This document shows, piece after piece, positions 41,446-45,783 of a stretch of 64,000 nt of DNA. Source of the DNA: an uncultured Oscillospiraceae bacterium (GTDB lineage: Bacteria; Bacillota; Clostridia; Oscillospirales; Oscillospiraceae); assembly GCA_947629795.1 (NCBI GenBank), contig CANRFC010000001.1, positions 141,369 through 205,368 of the forward strand, read 5' to 3'. A program made the position numbers and the translations under genes. The number at the start of each line of letters is the position of its first letter. Position 1 is the first letter of the stretch. The notes beneath the pieces are model-generated. The model did not search any database and was not told where the DNA came from. It was given only the letters and a program-made list of their open reading frames with translations.

Positions 41446-41700
41446 TCAGAGCTTCCGGCAGCGCAGCTCTTTCCCGCTTCCGGTGACGGAATATAGTGTC
41501 CATCCCTGGATATTCGTCATAAAAAGGGCATCTTTGACCTTTTCCACGTCCTCAGCTTCCACACGCAGCGCAATGCCGCAGCCGGCAGTGACCTGCCGCA
41601 GCGCCGGCATCACCACCACCGGGCACACTCCCTTGAGGGCCCGCTGGGCGGCCATGGCGCCGCTGGCCGAGGCAAAGGTCACATGACACCAGTCCATCAC
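41446..41700 (-). CDS. DUF3343 family putative Se/S carrier-like protein
   Basis: 84 aa, MMDWCHVTFASASGAMAAQRAL...TAGCGIALRVE; ATGA overlap with the upstream yedF. Confidence 0.75.
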   Translation of the reverse strand: MMDWCHVTFASASGAMAAQRALKGVCPVVVMPALRQVTAGCGIALRVEAEDVEKVKDALFMTNIQGWTLYSVTGSGKELRCRKL

Positions 41701-42296
41701 AGGGTGATCACTTTGGGATGGGCCCCCATCTCGGTGACGATGTCATACATATTGCTCACCGTCCCCGCCTTCAGCGCATCGGTCAGGCCATAAAAGTTCA
41801 GGCAGGTGCCGCACACCAGCACCTTCACGCCCTTGTCGATGAGCGTCTTCAGGTGTTCGGCCACCTGCTCGTCCCCGGTGGGCAGCTTTACACCGGCGTT
41901 CATGAAGATGACGGCGGCAGGAGGCTGATCCACCTGGGTCAGGGTGTAAAAATACATCCGCATGAGGTTGCCCCCCAGCTCCCGGTCCCCGTCTCCGATG
42001 ATATCCCGGCCCACGAACACCGCCCAGTCGCCTTCCGTAGGGGCGGCAGCGCACTGGATCTGGGGCTCCGGGCCCCGGACGGCACTCTCTCCGCCGGTGA
42101 GAGTCAGGGTGAAATCTCCCTCTCCCCCGCCGACAACGGCGGTATAGCCCTGGCTGGCCGCCAGCCGCTTCACGTTCTCCACTGCAGCGGCGTTGTCCAC
42201 CCGCACCGTCAGCTCCCGCTCCCCCGCGTCCATGGCCTGTTTGGTCAGGATCACGGGCTTGGGACAGGCCAGACCTCTGGCATCGATCTCCTTCAT
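41697..42296 (-). CDS. yedF: Selenium metabolism protein YedF (TusA/SirA-like N-domain plus DsrE-like C-domain)
   Basis: MKEIDARGLACPKPVILTKQAM (TusA-like CPxP motif); C-terminal GVKVLVCGTCLNFYGL. Confidence 0.88.
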   Translation of the reverse strand: MKEIDARGLACPKPVILTKQAMDAGERELTVRVDNAAAVENVKRLAASQGYTAVVGGGEGDFTLTLTGGESAVRGPEPQIQCAAAPTEGDWAVFVGRDIIGDGDRELGGNLMRMYFYTLTQVDQPPAAVIFMNAGVKLPTGDEQVAEHLKTLIDKGVKVLVCGTCLNFYGLTDALKAGTVSNMYDIVTEMGAHPKVITL

Positions 42297-42370
42297 ATTT
42301 CTGCCTCCCTTTCCTTTTGATTTTCACCCATTATACTCCCTCTTCCCGCAAAAGAAAACCCTCATTTAAG

Positions 42371-42478
42371 TTTACATAAAATTATTATGGTAAATTATTT
42401 CCCGCCCATTGATTTACATAATTTAATTATTGTAAACTTAACCGGCTTGTTTGATTTACATAAATAAATTATGGTAAA
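42371..42478. repeat. Three 24-bp palindromic operator-like repeats, period exactly 42 bp
   Basis: 42371-42394 TTTACATAAAATTATTATGGTAAA; 42413-42436 TTTACATAATTTAATTATTGTAAA; 42455-42478 TTTACATAAATAAATTATGGTAAA. Confidence 0.9.
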
Positions 42479-42517: not shown

Positions 42518-42546
42518 TTGACACCGTCCACAAAATGGGGTATATT
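42518..42546 (+). promoter_or_regulatory. Sigma70-type promoter of the cold-shock gene
   Basis: TTGACA - 17 bp - TATATT, ~120 bp upstream of the cspA ATG. Confidence 0.75.
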
Positions 42547-42663: not shown

Positions 42664-42876
42664 ATGAATCACGGTACTGTCAAATGGTTCAACAACGAGA
42701 AGGGCTACGGCTTCATCTCCAACGACGACGGCAGCGGCGACGTGTTCGTGCACTTCTCCGCCATCCAGGGCACCGGCTTCCGCACCCTGGAGGAGGGCCA
42801 GAAGGTAACTTACGACACCGAGCCCGATCCCAAGGACGCCGGCAAGATGCGCGCCATCAACGTGGTGGCCGAGTGA
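42664..42876 (+). CDS. cspA: CspA-family cold-shock protein
   Basis: [59 protein letters not shown] Shine-Dalgarno; RNP1 KGYGFI and RNP2 VFVHF. Confidence 0.97.
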
Positions 42877-43233: not shown

Positions 43234-43420
43234 GTTGACACTCCCCACGGCTAAAGCCGGGGGATTCTCGGTTCAGCGACCATTGCCTTCACCATGAGAG
43301 GTCTTACGCGGTCTCCCCGAGCGTTTGGTTCGGGCGTGTCCCGCCCTACCACATGGACTGGCTACACCAACAGGCGCAGCCCTTCGTTCAGAATGTTCTT
43401 CGCGGCGTTGATATCCCTGT
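43234..43420 (-). ncRNA. Candidate omega RNA (TnpB guide RNA) at the tnpB 3' end and IS right end; extent approximate
   Basis: Positional inference from IS605/TnpB biology; right-end hairpin at ~43242-43264. Confidence 0.45.
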
Positions 43421-44486
43421 CGTGGACGACCCCGCAGCTTGGGCAGGTCCACTCCCGGACGGAGAGGTCTTTGGTTCCGGGCCACTGAGTGCCGCAAGCA
43501 GAGCAAAGCTGACTGGACGGGAAAAATCGGTCAACAGTGACTACCTGTTTCCCGTACCATTCCGCCTTGTATTCCAACTGCCTGCGGAACTCGCCCCAGC
43601 TTGCATCAGAGATAGACCTTGCCAGCTTGCGGTTCTCCACCATTCTCTTGGGGGCCAAGTCCTCAATGCAGATGATATCGTTTTCCCGCACCAACTTTGT
43701 GGACAACTTGTGAAGCATATCTGCCCTCTGGTTTGCGATGTGCTCATGGAGACGGGCTACCTGGATCCTCGCCTTCTCCCGGCGATGGCTCCCCTTTGTT
43801 TTTCGGGAGAGCTGCCGCTGGAGCCTTGCGAGCTTCTTCTGGCTTTTGGACAGATACTTGTGGTTGGGGTACTCCGTTCCGTCGGAGGCAACGGCAAACG
43901 CCTTCAAACCCAAATCAAGACCAACTACTTCTCCGGTAGAGGGCAGAGGCTCCATCTCAACGTCGGTGCAGCATAGAGCGACAAAATATTTTCCGCTGGG
44001 ATTCTGACTGACCGTCGCGGATAGGATACGGCCCCTCACTTCCTTGCTGATTCTGCACTTCACAAGGCCGAGTTTGGGAAGTTGAACCGCTTTATCCAAC
44101 GCTTTGATATTCGTGCCAACGCACTTGCTCTTGTAGCTCTTTCGGTGGTCGCGCTTGCTCTTGAACCGTGGATAACCGGGTTTTCCGCCCTGTTTCACCC
44201 GCCGGAAAAAGTTTTGATAGGCGGTATCCAGCGTTTGCAAAGACGCTTGCAGAGAAGTGGCGTCCACCTCTTTCAGCCATTCCAATTCTCTCTTGAGAAG
44301 TGTCAGCTCCTTGTCCTGCTGAAACCGTGTAGGGGCTTTCCCGGTTTCTTTGTACATCTCCATCCGCTGCGCGAGAAAATGATCAAACACAAACCGGCAG
44401 CAACCGAAGGTCCGTTGGATCAAATTTTCTTGCCTTTGAGTTGGATATATCCGAAATTTGTAGCTGTATTCCATGTTTATCCTCAC
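43362..44486 (-). CDS. tnpB: RNA-guided endonuclease TnpB (IS605 OrfB)
   Basis: 374 aa; Ruv[19 protein letters not shown], Ruv[15 protein letters not shown], zinc ribbon [10 protein letters not shown]...WTCPSCG, Ruv[16 protein letters not shown] all present. Confidence 0.95.
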
Positions 44487-44875
44487 ACATTTTTTTGGTC
44501 CTCAATATATTGCTTGATGACAGACAGAGGAGCGCCGCCGACTGTGGAGACAAAATATGCGTTTGTCCACAGAGAGGGGAGTCTGGAGCGCAGCCATCCA
44601 AATTCCTGGCGCAATATCCGAGATGTGCGGCCTTTTATTCGCTTGACGGCCTTGTGTACGCCAAACTGAGGGTCTACTTCCATCAGCAGATGCACATGGT
44701 CTGGCATGATTTCCATCTCAATGACTTCAATTCGATATTCGGCGCAAATTTCCTTTATCAATGCTTTCAGCCGAATATCTACGCCATTGTCCAAGACCTT
44801 TCGGCGGTATTTTGGGCACCAGACCACGTGATATTTGCAGGAGTACACCACATTATGATTGCTTTTGTATTCCAT
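44483..44875 (-). CDS. tnpA: IS200/IS605 Y1 transposase TnpA
   Basis: [28 protein letters not shown]...[13 protein letters not shown] (HUH)...VIKQYIEDQ (candidate catalytic Tyr). ORF track extends to 44899; start at 44875 preferred. Confidence 0.93.
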
Positions 44876-45000
44876 GCAAAAGATTATACTACTCAACAAA
44901 AACTAATGCAACCCTGTAGTCCCTATACGGGAAAATAAGGTGTGGCTTATATCCCCATGCCTAAAGGTAGGGGCTTCACGCCACGTTTGGTAAAGAGACA

Positions 45001-45783
45001 ATGCCAGTCAACAAGAACACACTGAAAGCGGAGCTATCCGCAAATGGCAACCGCGTTTGCCAAGATATACAGGCCGTCGCATCGGAGCTGAGTACCACAC
45101 TTACGGATACGGAGACTCTTGTCGGCACTTGCGTCAACCGGCAGGCGATCCCGTTTATCCTGTGGAATGATTTTTTCAATGTGGCTGGTACACTCTCTCC
45201 CAAAAGCGGGAAGCAACAGTACCGTTATAAATGGGGTGATAAGGTCTTTGTGGATTTTGGCTGTGCCAACATTCAGACGGAAATTTCTTTCCCCCATCCG
45301 GCCATCGTGCTTTATAATTTCTCCAATACGGTCATTATCGCGCCGACTACCTCAGACGATAATCCGTCTTTCTCTGCCGATATTGAATCGGTGGTTATCA
45401 AGGCGGACAAGGATGGGAAGATATTCCCGAAAGATACGGTCATCAACCTCCACCAAATCAAGGCCGTACATAAAGAGCGCATCATCAGCAACCTGAAATG
45501 CAATGTACGCGATTACACTGTCAGCCCTGCCGAGATTCAGCGGCTGAACAACATCGCGCAAAGGCCGGTATTTGCCAACGGAATTGACCTTATGGCCTGT
45601 ATTCGCATCAAGCTGGCGTCGATGTTCGCAGCGTCGTATGTCCAGGGATTGATTACAGCGGCCGAGACAGCAAAGGAGACGGTCAAGGCACAGGCGGAGC
45701 AGCTTGTGGAGAAAGACGCTGAGATTGCCCGACTAAAAGTTGAGTTGGACGCGCTCACAAGAAAGCAGGATAACAACGGTTAA
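45001..45783 (+). CDS. PemK/MazF-like protein with N- and C-terminal helical extensions
   Basis: Core RYKWGDKVFVDFGCANIQTEISFPHPAIVLYNFSNTVIIAPTTSDD...DTVINLHQIKAVHKERI resembles PemK/MazF; C-terminus is a heptad-rich helix (AAETAKETVKAQAEQLVEKDAEIARLKVELDAL). Confidence 0.75.
   Translation: MPVNKNTLKAELSANGNRVCQDIQAVASELSTTLTDTETLVGTCVNRQAIPFILWNDFFNVAGTLSPKSGKQQYRYKWGDKVFVDFGCANIQTEISFPHPAIVLYNFSNTVIIAPTTSDDNPSFSADIESVVIKADKDGKIFPKDTVINLHQIKAVHKERIISNLKCNVRDYTVSPAEIQRLNNIAQRPVFANGIDLMACIRIKLASMFAASYVQGLITAAETAKETVKAQAEQLVEKDAEIARLKVELDALTRKQDNNG

Follow-up and report, generated by a model that had tools for sequence, protein, structure and literature searches.

A phased cluster of three candidate XerD binding sites between yedF and cspA in an uncultured Oscillospiraceae bacterium

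At the terminus of the Bacillus subtilis chromosome, SMC complexes are unloaded in an XerD-dependent manner (PMC12322038, PMC10945525, PMC8357415, PMC13220808), and trapping of a complex may require several sites (PMC10945525). The sites concerned, XDS (XerD-binding SMC-unloading sites), were described by Karaboja et al. 2021, as cited in PMC12322038 and PMC10945525. XerD also gives its name to one arm of dif, which in B. subtilis reads ACTTCCTAGAA-TATATA-TTATGTAAACT (PMC3025954). A dif site consists of an 11-bp XerC arm, a 6-bp centre and an 11-bp XerD arm, and is present once per chromosome. The matS/MatP system of Escherichia coli offers a functional analogy only: its sites are likewise dispersed, and the protein bound to them keeps an SMC complex away or unloads it, whereas both its sequence and its protein are unrelated to those considered here. 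XDS action is reportedly independent of XerC, dif and catalysis.

We analysed a stretch of 64,000 nucleotides (the window; all unprefixed coordinates refer to it) from an uncultured Oscillospiraceae bacterium, in which three phased near-palindromes lie between yedF and cspA. On the basis of sequence and genomic context, they are most likely a cluster of XerD sites.

The array between yedF and cspA

Three near-palindromes of 24 bp each occupy positions 42371..42394, 42413..42436 and 42455..42478 on the plus strand, with a period of 42 bp and two spacers of 18 bp (42395..42412 and 42437..42454, no strand). A rescan reproduced exactly the starts, length and period given by the first-pass annotation. 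With up to 3 mismatches allowed, the window contained no match beyond these three, and none appeared in 100 dinucleotide shuffles, which puts the chance expectation at zero. Site 1 reads TTTACATAA-AATTA-TTATGGTAAA (with flanking bases, AGTTTACATAA...TTATGGTAAAT), site 2 reads TTTACATAA-TTTAA-TTATTGTAAA and site 3 reads TTTACATAA-ATAAA-TTATGGTAAA; the consensus is TTTACATAA-N5-TTAT(G/T)GTAAA (9+5+10). The centre is therefore N5, one base less than the N6 first proposed. The description of the sites as palindromes is right for the inverted arms and wrong for the symmetry, the right arm being one base longer than the left. Similarly, the two spacers, which had been called identical, agree in length but have only 6 of 18 bases in common, indicating that the array is unlike a recent tandem copy.

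The placement of the array between yedF and the cspA promoter was confirmed. It lies 75–182 bp upstream of yedF (41697..42296, minus strand, start at 42296), which encodes TusA and DsrE domains (PF01206, PF02635) and is accompanied by a gene for a Se/S carrier-like protein (41446..41700, minus strand; PF11823). On the other side, 39 bp separate the end of site 3 from the -35 box (42518) of the cspA promoter, TTGACA-17-TATATT (42518..42546, plus strand), which was found by promoter scan with 11 of 12 consensus matches; cspA itself (42664..42876, plus strand; PF00313) encodes a cold-shock domain protein. For yedF, sequence reading suggested a putative -10 box, TATAAT, at 42330..42335 on the minus strand; it lacks a good -35 box and was not returned by the promoter scan. 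The window also contains an IS200/IS605 pair (Y1 transposase and TnpB; 43362-44899, minus strand) ~900 bp from the array, a gene whose product combines a PemK/MazF-like toxin domain with a long extension at the C terminus (45001-45783, plus strand), and an 8,036-aa open frame with RCC1-like repeats (16838-40948, minus strand), opposite to which runs a 13,377-aa open frame (179-40312).

Such an array could represent operators at which a dimeric, as yet uncharacterised transcription regulator binds cooperatively on one helix face and controls yedF and/or cspA, with the other copies, including those at xerD, forming the rest of its regulon. The position between divergent promoters agrees with this explanation, as do the four-turn phasing and the location of site 1, whose centre precedes the inferred yedF transcription start, with its weak -35, by ~60 bp. 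In addition, many copies in another genus are intergenic, and in one genome (G005) a one-mismatch site immediately precedes the start of a ROK-family gene. However, yedF was detected in 43 of 151 family genomes, and at the 29 orthologue loci searched in the family the palindrome was upstream of yedF in none; the sole related string was an isolated half-site 254 bp upstream (L089). The regulator of the selenium/purine locus that the first-pass annotation had suggested was rejected on these grounds, and the copies found elsewhere adjoin unrelated genes. That annotation had named, as its refutation, a lack of conservation at yedF orthologues together with a lack of other genomic occurrences; the former was found, whereas other copies do occur. 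One of them, in G066:C30, lies ~250 bp upstream of a DUF3343–cysteine desulfurase pair, which we took as coincidence because of the positions of the other copies. Further points against operators are copies that lie 3' of genes or within coding sequence (aroE, MBOAT), the incoherent set of genes beside the copies, the identity of one arm with the XerD arm of dif and the sites near the terminus in unrelated Firmicutes. We consider operators unlikely; a signal in chromosome organisation is a likelier role for the array than switching of the adjoining selenium gene.

Arms of the XerD type and the comparison with dif

The first-pass annotation had suggested an uncharacterised regulator and had not recognised the consensus. 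Regularly phased candidate protein sites, recurring elsewhere, are indeed present, but half of the motif is recognisable as the XerD arm. The conserved half AGTTTACATAA, which forms the left arm of site 1, agrees in 11 of 11 bases with the XerD arm of B. subtilis dif (TTATGTAAACT) read as its reverse complement, and the other arm, TTATGGTAAAC, resembles the XerD arm with 1 extra base. Over 73 distinct sites, the element was refined to GTTTACATAA-(A/T)5-TTATGGTAAAC, 27 bp in length. In this set the arms were invariant, the centre was 95% A/T but varied and the flanks were non-homologous, with conservation ending sharply at G(-1) and C/T(+24/+25). Positions in the search pattern are conserved through site selection, so that the independent evidence consists of the outer bases and the centre; among the 48 sites not chosen on their outer bases, G preceded the core in 85% and C followed it in 71%.

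Invariant arms, a varied centre and unrelated flanks indicate a protein-binding-type site rather than a copied repeat. One genus does carry multiple intergenic copies, as a dispersed palindromic repeat (REP- or MITE-like) would, and an AT-rich array might also arise by chance without any binding protein. Nevertheless, the shuffles, with zero matches expected, the 73-site profile, with a centre randomised among A/T, and the presence of the element in distant Firmicutes largely refute these explanations, which we regard as very improbable.

The Firmicutes dif (ACTTCCTATAA-TATATA-TTATGTAAACT) and the element share one identical arm, an A/T centre and inverted arms, and the element lies near dif in Salinicoccus and Paucisalibacillus. 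In contrast to dif, the element has a centre of 5 rather than 6 bp and a second XerD-like arm in place of the XerC arm, and it is clustered and multi-copy, with 4 exact copies in the window genome and up to ~15 in the related genus. The array as dif itself was rejected because the centre length is wrong, the XerC arm is missing and there are several copies. The shorter centre and the missing XerC arm further suggest that the sites are most likely for binding and not for recombination. A convincing Firmicutes-type dif was not found in 16 family genomes, the window's genus included; a relative of the element with a 6-bp centre, ATTTACCATAA-TATAAA-TTATGTAAACT, is present at G151:C1:102979.

Copies in the family and the recombination alternative

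In the window genome, the fourth exact copy is inside aroE (C4:102846), with a further half-site 54 bp off. Weaker copies were located upstream of spoIIM-xerD (C21, 2 mismatches) and at C10:65134, where the copy abuts the 3' side of an IS200 transposase gene. The other family genus (G066, G151, G166, G167, G168, G173) had 4–15 copies per positive genome at up to 2 mismatches and 0 of the reversed pattern; among these copies are ones 3' of mfd and of malQ and others in the thrC–dapF interval. Just 1–3 copies were found in Bacillota genomes outside the family. A version of the palindrome with a 6-bp centre was seen inside the MBOAT gene of two same-genus genomes (L008:1501-1524 and L010:1501-1524), where 8 of 8 codons are identical; the signal of DNA-level constraint on this site across the two genomes is weak (P ~0.013).

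Sites of this kind could also serve recombination: they would be dif-like, XerCD or another tyrosine recombinase would insert and excise small modules as with pdif modules or integron cassettes, and the array would be three sites 18 bp apart. Between thrC and dapF, a single site is present in G168, whereas in G151, G167 and G173 a direct pair of sites flanks 250–790 bp of unrelated, repeat-rich non-coding DNA (L160-L163). This difference is between species and could also have arisen by plain tandem duplication or by DNA inserted between sites already present. Neighbouring sites less than 1 kb apart were direct in ~12 cases and inverted in 1, although plain tandem duplication also gives direct orientation. 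Tandem units are present in G168:C4, and at L232:17-1059 two similar barstar-like genes stand in tandem with one palindrome after each, like a duplicated cassette. The pdif/dif modules of Acinetobacter plasmids resemble the related genus in that dif-like sites bound variable modules at one locus, and they differ in that the element is chromosomal, direct in orientation, 5 bp at its centre and associated with mostly non-coding modules. Both arms are Xer-like in character, which speaks for recombination; against it stand the 5-bp centre, the absent Firmicutes XerC arm, modules that mostly lack gene-cassette logic, an 18-bp module too short for circularisation and the low copy number outside the family. 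Presence and absence of a module was not seen at the window locus. We judge recombination to be quite improbable as the role of these sites and keep to XerD binding as the preferred reading.

Half-sites are frequent as well. TTATGTMAAC occurs 53 times in the window genome, against 3 occurrences of the reversed pattern, and is also found in many family genomes; we did not use this enrichment as main evidence because Tyr-Val-Asn codons yield the same string. In the window genome the half-sites form clusters (20 neighbour pairs less than 1 kb apart against ~1 expected, partly confounded by the same codons), almost all of them on a subset of contigs (C4, C10-C13, C30, C45, C47), some of which carry origin-type genes; one such contig bears walR/walK-like genes and mnmE. 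Direct repeats of the half-site at 14-bp spacing were also seen upstream of genes in the window genome (C10:7905-7933, C12:19987-20010, C30:26889-26912) and upstream of xerD in G066, G168 and G173, and this spacing equals the centre-to-centre distance within the palindromes.

The copies at xerD link the element to its candidate binding protein. The same three genomes share a conserved pair of tandem half-sites (GTTTACATAA, spaced by 14 bp) ~210 nt upstream of xerD, and in Atopococcus tabaci an exact palindrome precedes an operon of two genes, the second of which NCBIfam identifies as XerD. These positions suggest that XerD may also control its own synthesis. A dedicated recombinase shared by the motif-bearing genomes was considered and rejected: among the matches, no extra common tyrosine recombinase was evident, and all of these genomes had XerC- and XerD-like proteins.

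Chromosomal position and the XerD reading

The exact 26-bp form, GTTTACATAANNNNNTTATGGTAAAC, was recovered in 26 stretches from a scan of 85,462 species, and all but one rumen bacterium were Firmicutes-named records. In Salinicoccus luteus, the site falls between plsY and parE, and a perfect Firmicutes dif carrying the same arm is 18 kb away. In Paucisalibacillus globulus, the skew maximum is 6 kb and a dif remnant 9 kb from the site. The remnant (G181:C8:10542) matches the consensus over 22 bases, after which the XerD arm is broken following TTATGT (TTATGTTCGGG); perhaps an element integrated at dif. Sites in Anaerotignum neopropionicum and Saccharibacillus kuerlensis lie 10 kb and 56–61 kb, respectively, from the cumulative GC-skew maximum. 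The probability of such proximity by chance was 0.003–0.03 per genome; with the Paucisalibacillus value doubled for its two sites, the combined Fisher P was ~2e-5 over 4 genomes, which come from 7 named genomes examined rather than from a blind sample. A skew switch was absent from the contig stretch read around the Bacillus haynesii and Atopococcus sites. The B. haynesii site is near genes resembling cwlC, nrdEF and miaA, which we take to be on the terminus side in B. subtilis.

Around the window array itself, GC skew changes sign; however, third-position skew tracks the coding strand in the window genome, and skew was dropped as proof that the array is at the terminus. For the related genus, GC skew was dropped because its signal was too weak. 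The genes aroE with the S10 operon, mfd and prs are usually origin-proximal. Since copies lie beside aroE and the S10 operon and, in one genus, beside mfd and prs, restriction to the terminus is doubtful in Oscillospiraceae.

These positions frame the comparison with XDS, which draws on the description of XDS in the citing papers. Both have XerD-type arms, few copies per genome and proximity to the terminus (in the four other Bacillota genomes), and the array likewise holds several sites together, which the XDS work reportedly considers important for unloading. Unlike XDS, copies of the element also occur upstream of xerD and, in Oscillospiraceae, beside usually origin-proximal genes, and the array has its three sites phased at 42 bp.

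We therefore favour, with moderate confidence, a cluster of three candidate XerD binding sites, most likely for SMC unloading or chromosome organisation. Each site would present a pair of XerD-type arms, inverted about a centre of 5 bp made up of A/T only, and several sites in a row on one helix face would raise local occupancy. Such a pair with a shortened centre, present in few copies near dif, might be the form taken by a platform that does not recombine. XerD at the sites would unload translocating SMC, as reported at the B. subtilis terminus, and by this analogy the array is probably related in kind to those sites. The steps that we infer are the binding of XerD, the unloading of SMC and any influence on yedF or cspA transcription. 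Counted against this reading were the half-sites in 14-bp direct repeats, an unusual Xer arrangement, as well as the centre length and the family copies at usually origin-proximal genes.

A broader proposal, which we offer tentatively and with more doubt than belief, is that the 27-bp element is a Firmicutes-wide second class of Xer site apart from dif: a platform for XerD at which recombination is weak or absent, and whose copy at xerD serves autoregulation. In Oscillospiraceae, it would have been multiplied into phased arrays and dispersed clusters, also outside the terminus, and would thereby set SMC traffic in several domains of the chromosome. The present reading corrects a likely mis-annotation, in that palindromes near a metabolic gene would not be its operator. 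The three-site array would be a compact natural cassette for asking what number and spacing of XerD sites SMC unloading requires. If the XerD reading is right, XerD-dependent SMC-unloading sites would be predictable from sequence across Firmicutes, including uncultured gut Clostridia.
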